From Rhodoflexus caldus (GTDB lineage: Bacteria > Bacteroidota > Bacteroidia > Cytophagales > Thermoflexibacteraceae): a stretch of DNA of 64,000 bases. The stretch is taken from NCBI RefSeq assembly GCF_021206925.1, contig NZ_JAJPRF010000005.1, forward strand, positions 62,001 to 126,000. Reading direction: 5' to 3'. Under the pieces are notes generated by a model. The model did not search any database and was not told the origin of the DNA. It worked only from the letters and a program-made list of their open reading frames with translations. Of the stretch, positions 40,758 to 52,797 are shown one piece after another (the first letter of the stretch is position 1; every line of letters starts with the position of its first letter). A program made the position numbers and the translations under genes.

Positions 40758-40829
40758 GCACCGTTCGTCTAGGGGTTAGGACGTATCCCTTTCACGGATA
40801 AAACACGGGTTCGATTCCCGTACGGTGTA
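40758..40829 (+). tRNA. tRNA-Glu (UUC anticodon)
   Basis: A 72-nt cloverleaf. Acceptor arm GCACCGT pairs with ACGGTGT (one G-U), D-arm region TCTAGGGGTTAGGA, anticodon stem TATCC/GGATA with loop CTTTCAC (anticodon TTC), T-arm CGGGTTCGATTCCCG, discriminator A. CCA is not encoded. It has its own promoter and terminator. It lies immediately beside the CRISPR locus. Confidence 0.97.
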
Positions 40830-40969: not shown

Positions 40970-41078
40970 AAATAAAAAAGCCCCGCGGAGTACACAGGGC
41001 GAAAATAACTGCGGCATATAGCCTTATTGTGATAAGAAATACAAAATTGGATTATTTTATACGTTTCTTGATTGATTG
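40970..41078 (-). ncRNA. tracrRNA of the type II-C system
   Basis: Read on the minus strand. Anti-repeat: AATCCAATTTTG (complement of 41042-41053) pairs perfectly with 12 bases of the minus-strand repeat; after a bulge, ATCACAAT pairs with the repeat's first eight bases GTTGTGGT (two G-U). Next comes AATAAGGCTATATGCCGCAG, whose GGC/GCC nexus hairpin and ACAATAAGGC...GCCGCA layout match the Neisseria tracrRNA. An 8-bp stem (GCCCTGTG with CGCGGGGC, 40980-41000) and a T-run form the terminator. Start inferred about 6 nt after the -7 box. It is divergent from cas9 and antisense to part of the cas9 leader. Confidence 0.9.
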
Positions 41079-41083
41079 CTGAG

Positions 41084-41115
41084 CAAATGTAGTAAATTTC
41101 AAGCAATCAACCAAA
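41084..41115 (-). promoter_or_regulatory. tracrRNA promoter (TTTG-N20-TACATTTG)
   Basis: On the minus strand: TTTG (complement of 41112-41115), 20 bp, TACATTTG (complement of 41084-41091). Same architecture as the tRNA-Glu promoter. The -7 box is flanked by a 9-bp perfect inverted repeat, TTGATTGCT (41072-41080) and AGCAATCAA (41102-41110). Confidence 0.8.
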
Positions 41116-41129
41116 TAACTGTCAATCTT

Positions 41130-44100
41130 ATGGGAAAAAAAATTTTAGGCTTAGACCTTGGGGAAAATTCTATCGGCTGGGCACTGGTAGAACACAACGC
41201 TGACGAATTAAATAACAACCCGCAAGGGCGAATCCTCGGCACAGGAACCATCATCCCAAAAGCCGGTGGCAAAGAAAACGACAATCCGGGCATTATTCGC
41301 CGACAAAAACGACAACTCAGGCGGCAGGTTTTTCGCACGCGCTTGCGCAAACTTCTGCTAATCAAGTTATTGATGGAGCATAAAATGTTTCCGCCTGTAC
41401 CACACGAAGACTTGGTAGCACGACTGCAAGCACTGCAACTCGACGATGACCTGAGAGGCTTTTTCAGGATAGACCCTTACGAAAAACGTAAAGAGGCAGT
41501 AGAAGGGAAGAAATTGTCGCTATATGAACTGGGGCGTGTGTTCTACCACATGGCACAGCGAAGAGGCTACAAAGAAAACCGCTTGGCAGAATCGGACGCG
41601 GACGAAAGTGGCGCAATCTACACCGGCAACCCGAAAGACGACAAAAAGGGCATTGATGAAACCAGACAAGCCATGGGACAGCAAACACTGGGGCAATACT
41701 TGGCAGGGCTAAATCCGCACAAAGAGCGCCGACGCAATCGCTACACCCTGCGCAGCATGTACCTCAAAGAGTTTGACAGTATTTGGAAAAAGCAAAAAGC
41801 ATACTACCCCGATTTACTGACCGATGAGCTAAAACACCGAATAGGCGATGAAAAAGAGGGCGTGTTGTTTTTCCAACGCAAACTCAAGTCGCAAAAAAGC
41901 CTTGTACGCAAATGTACCTTCGAGTTTGACTATGTGAAGGACAAAAACAAAAAAGAAAGCAAACGTTATTTGACCGTATGCCCCAAAAGTTCTCCGATTT
42001 TTGAGCAGTTCAGGATGTACCAGTTCATCAATAGTATTGAAATGAACGGTATCAAACTGATTGACTGCCCGGGCGGAGAACTTTATCGGCAAAAATTAGT
42101 AGCCCTGTTCAACCAGAAAGAAGAACTGACATTTAAAGATATCAAAAAACTGATAAAATCGCCGGATGCTGCGTTTAATTACCCTGATGACAAAATTATC
42201 CCCGGTAACAAAACCATTGCACGCTTGCGAAAGCTGTTTAACTATTCGGAAAAAGAATATGTTGAAAAATTGAGCGAAGCAGAAAAAGCTCAATGGAAAA
42301 AACTGCCGCAACCGGAAATAGACCGACGCTTAAACATTTGGGAACACCTCAGCCCCGAAGAGCAGATGAAACGTTGGCACGTGTTTTATTCGTTCGACAA
42401 TACGGATAAAATTATAGAACATGCCCAAAAACACGGCTGGAACTTACCTGATGAAAGGCTGGCACTCATTAAAAAAGTACGGCTTGAACAAGGCTATGCC
42501 AATTTGAGCCATAGAGCCATCGGCTTTATCATGCCTTATTTGCAAAAAGGGTATATCTACTCCGAAGCCGTTTTGCTGGGCAGCATACAGCGCGTATTCA
42601 AGAAAGATTGGCAGGAATTTGCACCCGAAGAAAAGAGCAAAATTGAACAGCAGACTGTGGCCATCATCAGGCAAAACAGTAGCGAAGGAAAAAGCATTGA
42701 CCGCATCAAAACATGGCTCAAAACAACGTACAGCCGTACCGACCGCGATTTGGAACGCCTCTACCACCACAGCGACTTGGAAAACCCGCCCGGGGATGCA
42801 TCGGAACTTGGCTTCCCGCCTGCCGTGCGTAACCCTACGGTGCAAAAGGTGCTGGGAGCGCTCCGCAAATTAGTAAACAGTATCATGGCTACTTATGGCC
42901 GCCCCGACCGAATTGTGATTGAGCTGGCACGCGAAATGAACCTTTCGGAACGCGAAAAACAGGAAATGGAACGCACCATCAACAGGAACGAGCGCATCAA
43001 CAATGAGGCGAAGCGATTGCTGGCCGAAAAAGGGCTGCCGCCTACGATAGACAACATCCAAAAGTGGATTTTATGGGAAGAATGTCGGAAAGTATGCCCT
43101 TATACAGGCAAAAAAATTTCTTTTGAAGACTTGTTTGTTAATGCGCGCTTTCAGGTAGAACACATTGTGCCGCGCAGCATTTCCTTAGACAACAGCATGG
43201 CTAACAAAACCCTTTGCGAAGCGAGTGAAAACCTCAAAAAAGGTCAGCAAACACCTTATCAGTTTTACGGCAGCAACCCGCAAAAATGGGAGGAAATCAA
43301 AACGCGCCTTTGGCAAATGGTAAAACGCAGCGGAACGGAAGAACCACAGCAAAACAAATCCGTCATCCCCGATTCGTTCCCTTACAGCAAATTGAAGCGG
43401 TTCTTGTCGGAGCAAGCACCTGCGCCCGAAGGATTTATCAGCCGCCAACTCAACGATACGCGCTACATAGCCAAAGAAGCTAAAAACTACTTGGCGCAAA
43501 TCTGTAAGGCCGAGAATATCATAGTTGCCCAAGGAGGAGCCACTGCCCTATTGAAGCACTACTGGGGGCTGGAAAACATAGAAGGTGTCATGCAGACTGT
43601 CATACCGCTCTACCACGAAGACATCAGTAAGTTCAATCTGAAAAATGAACAGGAGTATCTGGCCGCTTTGGATGCCAAAGACCGACCGGTACAAATGTAT
43701 GAATGGAGCACTAATGCAGAGATCAACAAAAGCAACCGCGAAGCCCTCAAAAAGCAAGGACGGGTCGTTCAGGGACTCGTGCAGCTTCATCCGGCAGGCC
43801 GTCAGGGGCAACTGTTGGCAGGTAAGAACCGCGCCGACCACCGCCACCACGCCTTAGATGCTATTACGCTTGCCTGTATGCAAAAAAGCCACCTGCAAAA
43901 AATTGCCACCCTCATAGGCGAAGGGCGAAAGTTTAAAGAAATCAAAGAAAAAAACCTTTTCCCGTTGCCTTGGCGTACCTTCCGCGCTGATGTGCGTGCG
44001 GCGCTATGCGAACTGCTCACCGTTCATCCGCAGCCACAACAAAAAGTTGTTGCCGACAACAAAAAGCACATAGAAAAGAACGGGAAGAAATACCTTGCCC

Positions 44101-44894
44101 AAGGCATGACGGCAAAAGGAGCATTGCATGAGGAAAGCTATTACGGCTTCCATAAAAACAAAAAAACCGGTGAAGGAGAGTACCGCAAACGCAAACCCTT
44201 GGAAAGCATCACCACGATGAAGCAGGTACATAAAATCGTAGATGAGGGCGTGCGCCAACAAGTTATCCGTCGTTTGCAGGAAATAGGCATTGACACAAAT
44301 AATCCCAAAACCGATTTTAGCAAAGCCAAAAACGTATTTTTTGAGTCGGATGCCGAAGGCAGAAAAATTCCCAAGGTTTTTATGCCTAACAAAAACGGCG
44401 AACCTGTACCTGTTAAGAAAGTGCGTGTAGCTGAAAATTTGGGTACGGCAGTCCCACTGCCCGGCAAAGTAAACCGTTGGGTAAAACCGGGCGGTAACTA
44501 CGGCGTAGCCATCTACCGTGATGCACAAGGCAAATACCATGAGCGGGTAGTTACCTTCTGGGAAGCCGTTGAGCGACAAAAGCAGCAAATAGATGTTTTT
44601 CCCACAGTTAACTCCCAAGGCCATCACTTAATATTAACCTTACAAAAGAATGAACTTTTTTTATTAGGACTTCATCCGGATGAAATAGAGTGGAATAATC
44701 CTTCGCTGCTTTCTGCACATTTATACAGAGTGCAAAAACTTACCGCTGGGGATTATTACTTCCGCCTTCACAAAGCCGCAACAGTCGACATAGTGCACGA
44801 AGGAAAATATATTAAGAGTCTTAATAGCTTCTTCACAGAGCAGCACCCCATCAAAGTTCGCTTAGATGCGCTGGGCAATATTGTGCGGGTTTAA
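41130..44894 (+). CDS. cas9: Cas9, type II-C RNA-guided nuclease
   Basis: The ATG at 41130 (1254 residues) puts the RuvC-I motif at the N-terminus (MGKKILGLDLGENSIGWALVE, Asp9 catalytic); the longer ORF would extend into the tracrRNA promoter. An Arg-rich bridge helix follows (RRQKRQLRRQVFRTRLRK). RuvC-II is in RIVIELAREMN (Glu598), the HNH domain in QVEHIVPRSISLDNSMANKTL (His678), and RuvC-III in ADHRHHALDAI (His907, Asp910). All catalytic residues are present, so both DNA strands should be cut. The C-terminal ~300 residues include the PAM-interacting region; its PAM cannot be read from sequence alone. Absence of csn2 and cas4 marks subtype II-C. A terminator hairpin follows before cas1. Confidence 0.97.
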   Translation: MGKKILGLDLGENSIGWALVEHNADELNNNPQGRILGTGTIIPKAGGKENDNPGIIRRQKRQLRRQVFRTRLRKLLLIKLLMEHKMFPPVPHEDLVARLQALQLDDDLRGFFRIDPYEKRKEAVEGKKLSLYELGRVFYHMAQRRGYKENRLAESDADESGAIYTGNPKDDKKGIDETRQAMGQQTLGQYLAGLNPHKERRRNRYTLRSMYLKEFDSIWKKQKAYYPDLLTDELKHRIGDEKEGVLFFQRKLKSQKSLVRKCTFEFDYVKDKNKKESKRYLTVCPKSSPIFEQFRMYQFINSIEMNGIKLIDCPGGELYRQKLVALFNQKEELTFKDIKKLIKSPDAAFNYPDDKIIPGNKTIARLRKLFNYSEKEYVEKLSEAEKAQWKKLPQPEIDRRLNIWEHLSPEEQMKRWHVFYSFDNTDKIIEHAQKHGWNLPDERLALIKKVRLEQGYANLSHRAIGFIMPYLQKGYIYSEAVLLGSIQRVFKKDWQEFAPEEKSKIEQQTVAIIRQNSSEGKSIDRIKTWLKTTYSRTDRDLERLYHHSDLENPPGDASELGFPPAVRNPTVQKVLGALRKLVNSIMATYGRPDRIVIELAREMNLSEREKQEMERTINRNERINNEAKRLLAEKGLPPTIDNIQKWILWEECRKVCPYTGKKISFEDLFVNARFQVEHIVPRSISLDNSMANKTLCEASENLKKGQQTPYQFYGSNPQKWEEIKTRLWQMVKRSGTEEPQQNKSVIPDSFPYSKLKRFLSEQAPAPEGFISRQLNDTRYIAKEAKNYLAQICKAENIIVAQGGATALLKHYWGLENIEGVMQTVIPLYHEDISKFNLKNEQEYLAALDAKDRPVQMYEWSTNAEINKSNREALKKQGRVVQGLVQLHPAGRQGQLLAGKNRADHRHHALDAITLACMQKSHLQKIATLIGEGRKFKEIKEKNLFPLPWRTFRADVRAALCELLTVHPQPQQKVVADNKKHIEKNGKKYLAQGMTAKGALHEESYYGFHKNKKTGEGEYRKRKPLESITTMKQVHKIVDEGVRQQVIRRLQEIGIDTNNPKTDFSKAKNVFFESDAEGRKIPKVFMPNKNGEPVPVKKVRVAENLGTAVPLPGKVNRWVKPGGNYGVAIYRDAQGKYHERVVTFWEAVERQKQQIDVFPTVNSQGHHLILTLQKNELFLLGLHPDEIEWNNPSLLSAHLYRVQKLTAGDYYFRLHKAATVDIVHEGKYIKSLNSFFTEQHPIKVRLDALGNIVRV

Positions 44895-44904
44895 CCCATT
44901 TTAC

Positions 44905-44937
44905 ATGGCGGTTGCCTCAAAAGCAGCCGCCATTTTT
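44905..44937 (+). terminator. Terminator hairpin between cas9 and cas1
   Basis: 11-bp stem ATGGCGGTTGC (44905-44915) with GCAGCCGCCAT (44923-44933), one G-T wobble, 7-nt loop, five Ts. It begins 10 bp after the cas9 stop codon and ends 38 bp before the cas1 start. Confidence 0.85.
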
Positions 44938-44974
44938 ACATCCTTCTCTCTCCTTACCTCCATGCCTGATACCT

Positions 44975-45940
44975 ATGTTAAAGAAAATCCTGTCTTTCTC
45001 TCGTGCCTATCACCTCAGCACACGCAACGGCCAATTGCTTTTTACCGACAAAGAGCAACAACACACACAGCAACGCCCCATAGAAGACATCGGCTGTATT
45101 GTTATTGAACATCCGCAAATAACAATTACTGCCGGACTTTTGCAGTTGCTGGCTGCACATAACGTAGCCGTTTTATTCTGTGACGAAAAACACATGCCGG
45201 CTTCCATGCTCTACCATTTTGATACGCACTACGTACAAACAGAAAGGCTGAGGCAACAATTGGCAGCATCCGAACCGCTCTGCAAACAGTTATGGCAGCA
45301 AACCGTAAAAAGTAAGATTATCAATCAGGCCGCTGTTTTGGAACTTACCACCCGTTTGCCACAAGCCATTGCACGCCTGCGCAAAATGACAAGCAACATC
45401 CGCAGCGGCGACCCCGATAACTATGAGGCACAAGCAGCGCAACACTACTGGCCGGCACTAATGGGTGAAAATTTCAGGCGCGACCCGGAAGGACTGCCGC
45501 CCAACCCGGGATTAAACTACGGCTATGCCATCCTGCGAGCTGCCGCTGCCCGCGCTTTGGCAGCCACTGGCTTATTGCCTGCCGTAGGCATTCACCACCG
45601 CAACCGCTACAATGCTTTTTGTTTGGCCGATGACCTGATGGAGCCTTTTCGCCCGTGGGTAGACCGAACCGTTTGGCTCATGCGCGAACAACGCGCCGAT
45701 TATCACGTACTCAATCCTGCCAACAAACAAGAACTGCTCGGCATCTTGTATCAAGATGCCTGTTTTGGCAATGAAACCAGCCCCTTGATGGTGGCCATCG
45801 GCCGCTGTGCACAAAACCTTGCACGTGCTTTTGCCGAAGGCGGCAAAGTACGCTTGCAATATCCTACCCTGCCGGGAGTAAGTGCCAAACGCTCCCGCAT
45901 GACCGATGCCGGTGCGGACGATGCCGAAAACGTAGCCTGA
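44975..45940 (+). CDS. cas1: Cas1, CRISPR integrase
   Basis: The ATG at 44975 (321 residues) gives the family N-terminus MLKKILSFSRAYHLSTRNGQLLF; the longer ORF overlaps the terminator. Metal ligands are visible: Glu151 in YEAQAAQHYWPALMG, the histidine pair 207-208 in GIHHRNRYNAFCLADDLMEPFRP and the aspartates that follow. Cas1 inserts new spacers with Cas2. It is 2 bp upstream of cas2. Because a strong hairpin separates it from cas9, its expression should be lower than cas9 or come from its own promoter. Confidence 0.95.
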   Translation: MLKKILSFSRAYHLSTRNGQLLFTDKEQQHTQQRPIEDIGCIVIEHPQITITAGLLQLLAAHNVAVLFCDEKHMPASMLYHFDTHYVQTERLRQQLAASEPLCKQLWQQTVKSKIINQAAVLELTTRLPQAIARLRKMTSNIRSGDPDNYEAQAAQHYWPALMGENFRRDPEGLPPNPGLNYGYAILRAAAARALAATGLLPAVGIHHRNRYNAFCLADDLMEPFRPWVDRTVWLMREQRADYHVLNPANKQELLGILYQDACFGNETSPLMVAIGRCAQNLARAFAEGGKVRLQYPTLPGVSAKRSRMTDAGADDAENVA

Positions 45941-45942
45941 CC

Positions 45943-46290
45943 ATGAATGTCAAACTGCAAGAACGCCTAAACGGCTATCGCACCATGTGGCTTTTTGTAT
46001 TTTTTGACCTGCCCGTTGAAACCAAGAAACAACGGAAGGCTGCAACAGATTTTCGCAAAAAACTGCTGAAAGACGGCTTTTCCATGATGCAGTACTCGGT
46101 ATATATCAGGCACTGCGCCAGCCACGAAAGTGCCGATATGCACACCCTGCGGGTGGAAAAAATGGTACCGCCCCAAGGCATGGTAAGCATCTTGCGAATT
46201 ACCGACAGGCAGTTCGGTAACATCCGAAACTTTTGGGGCACTTCTGCACAGCCGCCACCGCCCAGCCCACCACAACTCGAGTTGTTCTGA
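45943..46290 (+). CDS. cas2: Cas2, CRISPR adaptation protein
   Basis: A 115-residue protein. The N-terminal strand MWLFVFFDLPVETKKQRKAA contains the conserved Asp of the ferredoxin-like Cas2 fold, followed by LLKDGFSMMQYSVYIRHC and VSILRITDRQFGNI. Two Cas2 dimers' worth of Cas1 partners form the Cas1-Cas2 integration complex. The C-terminal tail is Pro-rich (SAQPPPPSPPQLELF). It ends 109 bp before the first repeat with a bidirectional terminator between. Confidence 0.95.
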   Translation: MNVKLQERLNGYRTMWLFVFFDLPVETKKQRKAATDFRKKLLKDGFSMMQYSVYIRHCASHESADMHTLRVEKMVPPQGMVSILRITDRQFGNIRNFWGTSAQPPPPSPPQLELF

Positions 46291-46295
46291 CAGCG

Positions 46296-46345
46296 AAAAA
46301 AAACGGGCAAAACCTCATAAAAGGCGAGGTATTGTCCGTTTTTTT
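46296..46345. terminator. Bidirectional terminator between cas2 and the CRISPR array
   Basis: A long stem: eight As and CGGGCAAAACCTC (46296-46316) pair imperfectly with GAGGTATTGTCCG and seven Ts (46326-46345). It can end both the cas operon (plus) and the array transcripts (minus). Confidence 0.85.
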
Positions 46346-49300
46346 AAGCCCCTATTACAAGATAAGCATTTGACAATCAGCAAAATGTATCAAGTAATAA
46401 GTTAGTCAATCCAATTTTGCAATCAAACCACAACCGGCTCGCTGAAAACGGTTATTTCGCCCGCAAGTTAGTCAATCCAATTTTGCAATCAAACCACAAC
46501 CACAAGGCATAGCTTTTAAATAGAAGACCAAAGTTAGTCAATCCAATTTTGCAATCAAACCACAACCCAGAATCAGTTCCTGAATGCCAAAGCGCAAAGT
46601 TAGTCAATCCAATTTTGCAATCAAACCACAACCAAACTGCTTGAGCTGTACGAGTCAGACAAAGTTAGTCAATCCAATTTTGCAATCAAACCACAACTAC
46701 ACACTCCTGCGCCGCAGGCAACAAACAAGTTAGTCAATCCAATTTTGCAATCAAACCACAACTAGGCTTTCGTACCGCTCATTTTCGCAGCTAAGTTAGT
46801 CAATCCAATTTTGCAATCAAACCACAACAACGGGTTCGCCTACGCGGTAACTGTCGCAAGTTAGTCAATCCAATTTTGCAATCAAACCACAACGTAATTG
46901 TCCAAGTGGCGATATAGACACGCAAGTTAGTCAATCCAATTTTGCAATCAAACCACAACTGAATGCATCTTCGGTCATACCGACTTGCGAAGTTAGTCAA
47001 TCCAATTTTGCAATCAAACCACAACAAAACCAAGTATCAACAAGGCAGCGTAGAGAAGTTAGTCAATCCAATTTTGCAATCAAACCACAACCCTGTATCT
47101 GCTTTTCAAGCGCAATGACCTAAGTTAGTCAATCCAATTTTGCAATCAAACCACAACTGTCGAAGAGTTTACCAAAGAAGGTGTGTAAAGTTAGTCAATC
47201 CAATTTTGCAATCAAACCACAACCACGTAGTGATTTGCGGCTGAAAGTGGTGTAAAGTTAGTCAATCCAATTTTGCAATCAAACCACAACTACGCGATTG
47301 GCGTTCCTCAGTCGCTGATTAAGTTAGTCAATCCAATTTTGCAATCAAACCACAACCGGTGCTTGGGATGCCTCTGGCGGTCTCGTAAGTTAGTCAATCC
47401 AATTTTGCAATCAAACCACAACTCGCTTCGGCTGCTTCAGAAATATTAGTTAAGTTAGTCAATCCAATTTTGCAATCAAACCACAACCGTTACCGGCAAC
47501 CGTCGTACAACGTACGGAAGTTAGTCAATCCAATTTTGCAATCAAACCACAACTGTTTAGAATGCCACCGACACGTTGCTTGTAAGTTAGTCAATCCAAT
47601 TTTGCAATCAAACCACAACCGTGGCCTTCAATTTCAGAGAAGGCTTTATAAGTTAGTCAATCCAATTTTGCAATCAAACCACAACGCAGTGGCACGTCTT
47701 GATATGGACGGACGGAAGTTAGTCAATCCAATTTTGCAATCAAACCACAACTTGTGATAGCCTACTGTGAAGTAATTGTGAAAGTTAGTCAATCCAATTT
47801 TGCAATCAAACCACAACGTTGTACCAATCCCTAAGCGCCGCATCAACAAGTTAGTCAATCCAATTTTGCAATCAAACCACAACTTGGTGGTCGGGCAAGC
47901 TGCGGCGGTGCGCAAGTTAGTCAATCCAATTTTGCAATCAAACCACAACGACTTAGATAAAGTACTCATTTCGCCGCGAAGTTAGTCAATCCAATTTTGC
48001 AATCAAACCACAACTAGCATTTCGCCAGTAGGAAGTAGTAAACAAGTTAGTCAATCCAATTTTGCAATCAAACCACAACTGATTCTCGTAGTCGCAGCTA
48101 CGCGCAGATAAGTTAGTCAATCCAATTTTGCAATCAAACCACAACAGGCACTTTTTTCGGCTTTTCTTTGGGCGGAAGTTAGTCAATCCAATTTTGCAAT
48201 CAAACCACAACGCGCACGTTAAGCAAATACCACAGGGTAACAAGTTAGTCAATCCAATTTTGCAATCAAACCACAACCGCCTTCCAAGCCGTTTACACTT
48301 TTGTCTTAAGTTAGTCAATCCAATTTTGCAATCAAACCACAACCCATACAACGGATGGGATAATGTCCGCATTAAGTTAGTCAATCCAATTTTGCAATCA
48401 AACCACAACACTACTGCCCTGCCAAGCGCGTTGTCCCACAAGTTAGTCAATCCAATTTTGCAATCAAACCACAACCTTTGCCATGAGACCCGTAGAAATG
48501 GAAGAAGTTAGTCAATCCAATTTTGCAATCAAACCACAACTGAATGCGAAACATTGAGCAAAACCGCCTAAGTTAGTCAATCCAATTTTGCAATCAAACC
48601 ACAACATCTGGGAAGTACTCTGTTTCTATTCCCAGAAGTTAGTCAATCCAATTTTGCAATCAAACCACAACTGCGCTCAGGCTTGGAGTATTTCCTGATG
48701 AAGTTAGTCAATCCAATTTTGCAATCAAACCACAACGATGACTTTTAACCCCGTTTCAAAACTCAGAAGTTAGTCAATCCAATTTTGCAATCAAACCACA
48801 ACTGGCTACACGTTGGAGGACACCGTTCGGGAAGTTAGTCAATCCAATTTTGCAATCAAACCACAACCGAAACTTCACGAAACGAATCAAAGAAATAAAG
48901 TTAGTCAATCCAATTTTGCAATCAAACCACAACTTGTGCTTCAATCTCTTTGAGGCGCAACTAAGTTAGTCAATCCAATTTTGCAATCAAACCACAACAC
49001 GTGCCTGTCGCATATCGCGCCGTTCGGCAAGTTAGTCAATCCAATTTTGCAATCAAACCACAACTTGTACCGCGCTCAAATTTCTCGCCTTTCCAAGTTA
49101 GTCAATCCAATTTTGCAATCAAACCACAACTACACATTGGATAACTAAACTATGCAACTAAGTTAGTCAATCCAATTTTGCAATCAAACCACAACCAACT
49201 TGTCTTCCAACGGCGTAATGTTAATAAGTTAGTCAATCCAATTTTGCAATCAAACCACAACATGAATTGCCCATCAGCAATTCCAGATTATAAGTTAGTC

Positions 49301-49592
49301 AATCCAATTTTGCAATCAAACCACAACATCTCCGATGTGCTGCGCCGCTACCTGTCTAAGTTAGTCAATCCAATTTTGCAATCAAACCACAACATCCCAC
49401 ACTTGCAAAAGGCGGCGGCGCACAAGTTAGTCAATCCAATTTTGCAATCAAACCACAACTAAGTCGATTTGGTATTGAAGAGGCAACCCAAGTTAGTCAA
49501 TCCAATTTTGCAATCAAACCACAACCTGCGGGGCACGTTTGTGCGCACGGCAGCCGAAGTTAGTCAATCCAATTTTGCAATCAAACCACAAC

Positions 49593-49621
49593 TGTTGGCA
49601 TTGTTGGCGGGTGCCCGATGC
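49593..49621. repeat. Duplicated spacer A, first copy
   Basis: A 29-nt spacer starting TGTTGGCATTGTTGG, identical to 50516-50544. Confidence 0.9.
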
Positions 49622-49855
49622 AAGTTAGTCAATCCAATTTTGCAATCAAACCACAACAGCGTAAAATAAACCGCTTCATCGGGCTGAAAGTTAGTCAATC
49701 CAATTTTGCAATCAAACCACAACTGGATAGCAGCCAATTCGGCTTGGTCAATAAAGTTAGTCAATCCAATTTTGCAATCAAACCACAACCTGCCGTGCTT
49801 TCTGATTTGTTTCTTTACAAAGTTAGTCAATCCAATTTTGCAATCAAACCACAAC

Positions 49856-49885
49856 TCTTCGCGCTCTTCCTGTACTTTTTGCAGC
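49856..49885. repeat. Duplicated spacer B, first copy
   Basis: A 30-nt spacer starting TCTTCGCGCTCTTCC, identical to 50384-50413. Confidence 0.9.
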
Positions 49886-50383
49886 AAGTTAGTCAATCCA
49901 ATTTTGCAATCAAACCACAACCTCTAATATTTCGTATAACTGGTGTCTGTCAAGTTAGTCAATCCAATTTTGCAATCAAACCACAACAAGTTCCACAGCA
50001 CATTTACATCAACCAATAAGTTAGTCAATCCAATTTTGCAATCAAACCACAACATATCCCGTTCTGGGCTTTCTGTCAGTTCAAAGTTAGTCAATCCAAT
50101 TTTGCAATCAAACCACAACCGTAATCAGCGTGAAAAGCTGGTGGCTGAAAAGTTAGTCAATCCAATTTTGCAATCAAACCACAACGTAAGATGATGCAAC
50201 GGCTGAAAGACTAATAAGTTAGTCAATCCAATTTTGCAATCAAACCACAACTCCGCACCGATTTCAACAAGTCTTGTAAACAAGTTAGTCAATCCAATTT
50301 TGCAATCAAACCACAACTGTTAAGCAGTTCAATAAGTTGGAAATAGTAAGTTAGTCAATCCAATTTTGCAATCAAACCACAAC

Positions 50384-50413
50384 TCTTCGCGCTCTTCCTG
50401 TACTTTTTGCAGC
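50384..50413. repeat. Duplicated spacer B, second copy
   Basis: Identical to 49856-49885; here it comes before spacer A, the reverse of the first pair's order. Confidence 0.9.
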
Positions 50414-50515
50414 AAGTTAGTCAATCCAATTTTGCAATCAAACCACAACTACTTTCTCTATTTGCGTACTCGGATAGGCAAGTTAGTCAATCCAATTTTG
50501 CAATCAAACCACAAC

Positions 50516-50544
50516 TGTTGGCATTGTTGGCGGGTGCCCGATGC
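50516..50544. repeat. Duplicated spacer A, second copy
   Basis: Identical to 49593-49621. Confidence 0.9.
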
Positions 50545-51827
50545 AAGTTAGTCAATCCAATTTTGCAATCAAACCACAACTGTACTGCAAACCAATATTG
50601 CGGACTCCTCAAGTTAGTCAATCCAATTTTGCAATCAAACCACAACGCTTTGCCGCAACTGCGCTTCAAGGGATGAAGTTAGTCAATCCAATTTTGCAAT
50701 CAAACCACAACAACTTCTTTTTCTTGTTATATTAGTAATGAAGTTAGTCAATCCAATTTTGCAATCAAACCACAACTGGCAGTCAGCCACTTGCACAGGT
50801 GCGCGAAAGTTAGTCAATCCAATTTTGCAATCAAACCACAACCTTTGTTTGCCTCTCGTCGGCGTTGTGTGCAAGTTAGTCAATCCAATTTTGCAATCAA
50901 ACCACAACATCGCAAGTAAAAGTACAAGCCGATTACAAAAGTTAGTCAATCCAATTTTGCAATCAAACCACAACTTCCATTTGCTCGACGGGTCTGGCCG
51001 CCAAAGTTAGTCAATCCAATTTTGCAATCAAACCACAACTCGCAATTTTAATTTAAGCTGCTGAATCTAAGTTAGTCAATCCAATTTTGCAATCAAACCA
51101 CAACTAAGGTTCATATTCCTTGTGTCTGCCTTCTAAGTTAGTCAATCCAATTTTGCAATCAAACCACAACTGCTGTCGAGGCTATTGAAATCAATATCTA
51201 AAGTTAGTCAATCCAATTTTGCAATCAAACCACAACTTCCGATGGCGTAGGAAGTTTACCAAAATCAAGTTAGTCAATCCAATTTTGCAATCAAACCACA
51301 ACCGGGTGCATGGGCTGATGATGAGCGGACTAAAGTTAGTCAATCCAATTTTGCAATCAAACCACAACCGTAAATCAGCAACCTGTTCGCGAAGCAAAAG
51401 TTAGTCAATCCAATTTTGCAATCAAACCACAACGCCTCGCGGCGTTCGCCTGAAATTGAGTCAAGTTAGTCAATCCAATTTTGCAATCAAACCACAACTG
51501 CTTGTTGGTTGTGAATTTAGTAACCGTTAAGTTAGTCAATCCAATTTTGCAATCAAACCACAACAGACTAAGCCCTACATCGTTGGTTTGGCTGAAGTTA
51601 GTCAATCCAATTTTGCAATCAAACCACAACTTGATTTCGTCGTTAAAACGCTTCCGCGTAAGTTAGTCAATCCAATTTTGCAATCAAACCACAACTGGAG
51701 TTGCAGCATGATGTGGATATTGTGCAAGTTAGTCAATCCAATTTTGCAATCAAACCACAACTCATTACATCGCGGCGGTCGCCGTAGTGGGAAGTTAGTC
51801 AATCCAATTTTGCAATCAAACCACAAC

Positions 51828-51863
51828 AAAAAGAAGAAAGCACACATTAATCGGTGCTTTCTT
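51828..51863 (-). terminator. Terminator of the 51907-52797 gene, abutting the array
   Basis: 10-bp perfect stem AAGAAAGCAC (51834-51843) with GTGCTTTCTT (51854-51863); on the minus strand it is followed by CTTCTTTTT and then directly by the first transcribed repeat. Confidence 0.75.
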
Positions 51864-51906
51864 CGGATAAATTGCTCAGATAATTTATTCTTGGAAGAAC
51901 CAACAA

Positions 51907-52797
51907 TTAGCGCGTAACTTTCTGATTAGCAAAAGATTGCTCTTTGATGCAGCCATTTTCAAACTCTACTAACACTTTCAGGTTGAATGTAAACTCTTCA
52001 TTGCAGCCCTGTACTTTGGGCGGCAAGTAAAACATGGCATTCCAGAGTTTATCGCCTTTTCCGGTAGCTGAAAAGTCGCGCCCGCCCGGGTAAAGCAGTT
52101 GTGCACTGCTCGTGCTAATCCATTTATAATCGGCAGGTGTTTTTTGGAAGTGCTCATGCGTCAAAGGAATTAAAATCCAGTCTAACACCTTATCGGGTTG
52201 GCCGGGGCACTTGATAATTCTTTTGACATTGCTAACCTCATAAGTGATACCTCTTACTTTGTCACTGCCCGGCCCGGTTTGTAATCCGGCCGTAAAGCTG
52301 ACGGTTTGTTCATTCCGCAATGAGGCTAAAGCATCTGTTACTACAGAAGCTATGACAGGTGCAAACGATACAGTCTGATTGCAATTTACAGCGGCACAAG
52401 GAGTCAGATTGAAGTTGCTGACAGCACGGCAAACCTCATTTTGTCCGTTGGTAGGTGCTAATCGCAAAGCGAGCGAAGGAGCAACGGCAGCCTCATCGTA
52501 GATAAACGATATGTTGGCTTGGTTGTTCTGTAGCGGTACTTGGCTTACGCTGATTGTTCCACCGCTCATGGAAGCGATATTAACAGCAACAAGTGGAGGC
52601 GTAGTGGTCGGAGGATTTACTTTAAAAGTAAATGAAATCGTAAACTTACGATTAGGAGCAGATTGTGTACAAACAGACTGAAAGTTTTCCACAATGTAAC
52701 ATGGTGTAGTAACTTGCGAGTAGAGGGGAGCAACAACCAACAACAGGCAGCAGATGAGAACAATCTGCCACCCTCGCATTTGTTTGAGAGTACTCAT
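51907..52797 (-). CDS. Secreted protein of unknown function
   Basis: A 296-residue protein with a signal peptide (MSTLKQMRGWQIVLICCLLLVVAPLYSQ). The mature part is beta-rich with eight or so cysteines. Its end (VQGCNEEFTFNLKVLVEFENGCIKEQSF split around two Cys) resembles the terminal Cys modules of the 23227 and 25505 proteins, which also pair a CC/GC start with a strand and a later Cys. I do not recognise a family. It has no type IX sorting domain. It lies alone next to the CRISPR array and is not obviously linked to it. Confidence 0.65.
   Translation of the reverse strand: MSTLKQMRGWQIVLICCLLLVVAPLYSQVTTPCYIVENFQSVCTQSAPNRKFTISFTFKVNPPTTTPPLVAVNIASMSGGTISVSQVPLQNNQANISFIYDEAAVAPSLALRLAPTNGQNEVCRAVSNFNLTPCAAVNCNQTVSFAPVIASVVTDALASLRNEQTVSFTAGLQTGPGSDKVRGITYEVSNVKRIIKCPGQPDKVLDWILIPLTHEHFQKTPADYKWISTSSAQLLYPGGRDFSATGKGDKLWNAMFYLPPKVQGCNEEFTFNLKVLVEFENGCIKEQSFANQKVTR

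Follow-up and report, generated by a model that had tools for sequence, protein, structure and literature searches.

The CRISPR locus of Rhodoflexus caldus was analysed in a window, by which we mean the whole stretch of 64,000 nt of DNA under study, taken from a genome of 4.0 Mb. After a tRNA-Glu gene at 40758 come a minus-strand tracrRNA (40972–41079, ends approximate), the plus-strand genes cas9 (41130–44894), cas1 (44912–45940) and cas2 (45943–46290), and then the CRISPR array (46399–51827). The cas genes have Pfam matches (HNH_4, RuvC_III, Cas_Cas1 and CRISPR_Cas2); the combination of a 1254-aa Cas9 carrying HNH and RuvC_III domains with cas1 and cas2, and with neither csn2 nor cas4 beside them, places the system in type II-C. 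The same Cas9 was absent from all 12 of the other genomes of the family. The array comprises 83 identical 36-nt repeats (GTTGTGGTTTGATTGCAAAATTGGATTGACTAACTT on the minus strand, running from 51827 down to 46399) and 82 spacers of 29–31 nt, mostly 30 nt. Numbered from 51827, spacers 20 and 34 are the same, as are spacers 22 and 30; the second copies stand in reverse order to the first, which simple duplication of a block would not account for.

The orientation of the array follows from the tracrRNA, which contains an anti-repeat (41026–41056) and a terminator. Because the anti-repeat pairs with positions 1–28 of the minus-strand repeat (duplex −27.7 kcal/mol), the crRNA strand is the minus strand, read from 51827 to 46399. 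On this strand the array is preceded by an intrinsic terminator of the upstream gene (51828–51864, minus strand), whose T5 tract touches the first repeat and whose stem-loop (51833–51864) has a fold of −15.8 kcal/mol (z −6.4). As the terminator lies flush with the first repeat, it leaves no space for an external or leader promoter ahead of the array, and the analysis of the flanks revealed none evident there. The leader region (46291–46398, minus strand) separates cas2 from the array, on the side where crRNA transcripts would have their 3′ end, and holds a terminator stem-loop at about 46297–46345 (−19.8 kcal/mol, z −5.4). The product of the gene that lies before the array (51907–52797), 296 aa long, matched no Pfam family.

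Promoter-like letters within the repeat

In the minus-strand orientation every repeat holds TTTG at positions 8–11 and TAACTT at positions 31–36, separated by a gap of 19 nt, exactly as the first-pass annotation had reported. In the first repeat, the candidate −33 element TTTG lies at 51817–51820 and the truncated candidate −7 element TAACTT at 51792–51797 (both minus strand), and their offsets are constant in all repeats. The two reference promoters named alongside them, TTG-N20-TACCTTTG for the tRNA-Glu and TTTG-N20-TACATTTG for the tracrRNA, were also found as described, the latter being a complete Bacteroidota promoter (41084–41115, minus strand; matrix score 19.3). Since all repeats are identical, the 83 copies amount to one observation; counting a single sequence as 83 tests was rejected.

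Promoter likeness was scored with a two-block matrix trained on gene-upstream sequence (392 regions, from 863 kb of the host genome), which returned TTG, a gap peaking at 20 and cTA(A)(C)TTTGC. The −7 consensus of the host genome, cTAACTTTGC, is equalled by the in-repeat CTAACTT at 7 of 7 covered positions, and TAnnTTTG was 3.9 times more common upstream of host genes than in shuffles (392 regions). Bacteroidota sigma-ABfr promoters are described as TTTG / TAnnTTTG (PMC7366714), and the repeat resembles them in having TTTG where TTG or TTTG is expected near −33, a 19-nt gap within the usual range of about 19–21, and both the TA and the TT in place. When the repeat was shuffled with its dinucleotides preserved, TTTG-N18-21-TAnnTT arose in 0.9% of cases, and under the host matrix the in-repeat letters gave shuffle P values of 0.0044 when any register was allowed and 0.0016 for the 3′ end, a match that is only moderately better than chance. 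A scan for sigma-70 promoters yielded 21 sites, compared with 18.5 expected in shuffles, and nothing consistent.

The repeat differs from sigma-ABfr promoters in that the complete −7 sequence TAnnTTTG is not contained within it. The final TG falls in the spacer, where it is supplied by 6 of the 82 units (spacers 13, 27, 31, 79, 80 and 81, counted from 51827) and missing in 76. The earlier statement that each repeat carries a promoter is therefore too strong: the repeat has a candidate −33 element and most of a candidate −7 element, and the commonest related repeats have GATATT where the −7 box would be. When the spacer bases were included, the full matrix gave a median score of 3.5, which is reached at 1 in 73 genome positions, and the repeat did not rise above its own shuffles (P=0.25); the opposite strand of the repeat contains CCAATTTTGC, which has a higher score of 12.3 with the host matrix. 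Upstream of host genes, the box without TG, combined with TTG at N18–21, was enriched 1.55-fold, compared with 6.5-fold for the full form. The letters of the repeat are real, yet on their own they argue only weakly for a promoter.

With the end of the −7 box lying in the spacer, units would be expected to differ in promoter strength. Selection on such a split box by way of TG-starting spacers was considered and rejected: TG opened 6 of the 80 distinct spacers here and 50 of the 968 spacers of relatives, a frequency no higher than that of TG inside spacers. We suggest tentatively that in the 36-nt repeats of Bacteroidota II-C systems the −7 box might straddle the repeat–spacer junction, the strength of each spacer's own promoter being set by its two or three opening bases. 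If this were true, the stored sequence would control the expression of its own memory, crRNA levels would be partly predictable from spacer sequence and the six TG-starting spacers would yield the most crRNA.

Recurrence in II-C repeats of Bacteroidota and other phyla

Sampling of Cas9-positive loci in Bacteroidota and other phyla led to 131 arrays, with 51 non-redundant clusters of Bacteroidota II-C repeats. The pattern TTG-N17-21-TAnnTT was present on the crRNA strand in 24 of the 51 clusters, on the other strand in 2 and in 2.3 in shuffles; with G allowed as the first T of TAnnTT, it was present in 39 of 51 (3 on the other strand and 4.0 in shuffles). Among the 46 clusters of an initial set, the crRNA strand outscored the other strand in 41 (Wilcoxon P=1 × 10−9), one of the exceptions, L143, being an orientation error, and 17 of the 46 scored above their shuffled versions at P≤0.05, the expected number being 2.3; these P values are too optimistic because the repeats share ancestry. 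The position of the promoter-like box differs between divergent repeats. The sequence GATCTTTG, a −7 box in which G takes the place of the first T, was observed in the divergent repeats L076, L082, L085, L139 and L140, and most 36-nt repeats, which end in GATATT, have the same G at the first box position.

A Cas9 tree (FastTree, 126 sequences) split clade S, which has mostly 36-nt repeats and includes Rhodoflexus caldus, from clade L, which has mostly 46–47-nt repeats and consists entirely of Bacteroidota. Unsupervised motif finding in the 46–47-nt repeats beyond position 17 returned GTATCTTTGA (log-likelihood 78, compared with 28.6±3.4 in shuffles), which, judged by its letters, is the Bacteroidota −7 box, TAnnTTTG. 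TAnnTTnG was found in 17 of the 31 long-repeat clusters, whereas the other strand contained it in no cluster. A 5′ GTTG is nearly universal, and its TTG is placed 18–21 nt upstream of the box. Base-pairing of the anti-repeats is concentrated in this class on positions 1 to about 24, and pairing with the tracrRNA therefore does not explain TCTTTGA. Transcription in the long repeats would be predicted to start about 10–12 nt before the spacer, so that 5′ trimming would be expected in the 46–47-nt class. In the relatives of clade S, the 3′ flank of the array, on the cas2 side, is conserved and is the leader; the 5′ flanks are not conserved. A leader motif of approximately AGTTGGnntgttACCTTCTgatattCAT adjoins the last repeat in the clade S arrays L074, L078, L154, L207, L216, L239 and L244; the leader of the Rhodoflexus caldus array differs from it.

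The 13 relatives from other phyla (Pseudomonadota, Acidobacteriota, Planctomycetota, Lentisphaerota, Synergistota and others) all have TAnnnT at the end of the repeat (TACAAT, TACACT, TATAAT and similar), and the alphaproteobacterial repeat L277 reads TTGGCA-N16-TATAAT. Bacteroidota repeats have TAACTT, TACATT, TAGATT or GATATT at the same positions (31–36); GATATT replaces TAnnTT in the commonest related 36-nt repeats, and AACTTT is also found there in close relatives. All 18 of the related repeat clusters have TTG at positions 9–11, and TTG 9–11, A32 and T36 were invariant in a seven-repeat sample spanning Bacteroidota and other phyla. Among the clusters ending in xAxxxT, T35 was present in 1 of 12 from other phyla versus 10 of 12 from Bacteroidota (Fisher's exact test P=6 × 10−4), a contrast rather than a replicated proof because the swap is a single transition on the Cas9 tree.

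These comparisons suggest that one architecture (TTG, about 19 nt and TA at the repeat end) may serve both promoter grammars, with the end of the second box alone changing. The first-pass annotation had proposed that the array uses the design of other II-C systems independently and with a completely different grammar. Independent invention is disfavoured by the Cas9 tree and by the shared register, as the related Cas9s of other phyla come with TTG at 9–11 and TAnnnT at 31–36, and 'completely different' is too strong for two grammars that have TTG, a gap of 19–20 nt and TA in common. The array is probably a host-tuned form of the known II-C design.

Source of the crRNAs

With intact cas genes, a tracrRNA, identical repeats and no evident outside promoter, starts within the array are the simplest source of crRNAs; read-through into the array from outside is possible. 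We consider it fairly probable that the crRNAs are started inside the array by the host primary sigma factor, reading TTTG at 8–11 and TAACTT at 31–36. In the model that we propose, TTTG would serve this Bacteroidota sigma factor as the −33 element and TAACTT, extended by two bases of the adjoining spacer, as the −7 element, and RNA would start about 5–8 nt into each spacer. The transcript would continue through the next repeat, which would pair with the tracrRNA, and transcripts would head toward cas2 and the leader and stop at the terminator in the leader region, giving guides of about 22–25 nt without 5′ trimming. Internal, repeat-borne transcription in the Bacteroidota grammar, as put forward in the first-pass annotation, is favoured by the strand, by the terminator at the 5′ end and by recurrence, far above controls, in divergent Bacteroidota repeats; the weakness of the single repeat and the truncation of its box count against it.

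The 3′ letters of the repeat could also have been kept for integration by Cas1–Cas2, with an incidental likeness to a −7 box and with crRNAs derived from read-through, which we regard as unlikely. Cas1–Cas2 would here recognize both repeat ends, and xAxAxY at 31–36 would be the remnant of a terminal inverted repeat (GTTGTG...CACAAC). Mirrored ends are common in integration sites, the long repeats of clade L have CACAAC-like ends that mirror GTTGTG, conservation at the 3′ side of the short repeats is strongest for A32 and A34, and the leader adjoins the 3′ end of the repeat. Integration can thus account for part of the 3′ conservation (A32 and A34), but it leaves unexplained the T31 and T36 found in every relative from other phyla, the T35 of 10 of the 12 Bacteroidota clusters ending in xAxxxT, and the internal TATCTTTGA of the long repeats.

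Production of one long precursor, by read-through of the terminator from the gene at 51907–52797 followed by processing with tracrRNA and RNase III as in II-A systems, would be in line with the upstream gene pointing at the array, with the good pairing of the tracrRNA to the repeat and with the fact that intrinsic terminators are rarely complete. It is nonetheless quite unlikely, given a strong terminator that touches the first repeat, a 5′ flank that is not conserved and 5.4 kb of array to be covered. A chance likeness in the Rhodoflexus caldus repeat, with other Bacteroidota repeats bearing promoters and with starts elsewhere in this array or a match without meaning, appears very improbable: the ordinary score obtained once spacer bases count, the higher score of the antisense strand and the occurrence of GATATT or AACTTT at the same place in close relatives speak for it, whereas the agreement with the host −7 consensus at 7 of 7 covered positions, at a permitted gap to TTG, and the recurrence of the pattern in divergent repeats speak against it.

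Known II-C systems and the tracrRNA promoter

The repeat boxes of Neisseria and Campylobacter are TACAAT and TAAAAT. On the strength of work on these two genera, promoters inside repeats are described as the rule for II-C systems (Feussner 2025, PMC12080349), a promoter in each repeat being attributed to Zhang 2013 and Dugar 2013 as they are cited in PMC12080349 and PMC8092290. The Rhodoflexus caldus array is similar in that the putative second box occupies the six bases at the 3′ end of a 36-nt repeat, starts internal to the spacer would be expected and there is no leader promoter; it differs in that the TATAAT-like box of those systems lies wholly in the repeat, whereas TAACTT would be completed, if at all, by the spacer. 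Furthermore, it resembles the insulated II-C arrays of Feussner 2025 (PMC12080349) in that its first repeat, on the side of the oldest spacers, is immediately preceded by an intrinsic terminator, whose insulating role would here be putative. Such terminators occur in 11–12% of II-C systems and are no commoner there than in other intergenic regions (Feussner 2025, PMC12080349).

A promoter borne by the repeat is not a new idea in Bacteroidota. For F. columnare, the TTG in the repeat was proposed as a −33 element with eight array reads in support (Hoikkala 2021, PMC8092290), and the proposal was repeated in a paper on F. psychrophilum (PMC10309648). The Flavobacterium II-C systems share with the present array the Cas9 clade (F. 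psychrophilum MAG L216 falls in clade S), transcription toward the leader and the TTG proposed as a −33 element. They differ in that TTG alone was named for them, 33 or 35 bp upstream of each spacer, and no −7 box in the repeat, and in that the F. psychrophilum-type repeat ends in GATATT and that of Rhodoflexus caldus in TAACTT. In Riemerella, no promoter was found in the 47-nt repeats, and the leaders were run through a predictor hosted at fruitfly.org (PMC5006608). The open-access literature that we searched did not name a −7 box in Bacteroidota II-C repeats, and no mapped transcription starts in Bacteroidota arrays were found in it; B. thetaiotaomicron has no CRISPR array. The elements that would be new are thus the putative −7 box across Bacteroidota, its two registers and the split box that takes its last bases from the spacer. 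If these hold true, II-C arrays would work without a leader promoter in a phylum that has other sigma boxes, the repeat having been retuned to its host; this would help to explain the differences between phyla in repeat 3′ ends and would restrict the hosts in which an array works after horizontal transfer. The putative promoter pattern of the repeats likewise provides an easy means of telling the direction of Bacteroidota II-C arrays.

Upstream of the anti-repeat, TAnnTTTG was found in 38 of 94 Bacteroidota loci, compared with 8.2 in shuffles, and its distances to the anti-repeat in these tracrRNA regions formed two tight groups of 33–38 and 46–50 nt, making it a useful handle for locating tracrRNA starts. 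Within the tracrRNA promoter of Rhodoflexus caldus, GGTTGATTGC resembles repeat positions 7–16 (GTTTGATTGC) and is overlapped by the −33 element; this promoter might be a relic repeat in which the promoter has been retained.
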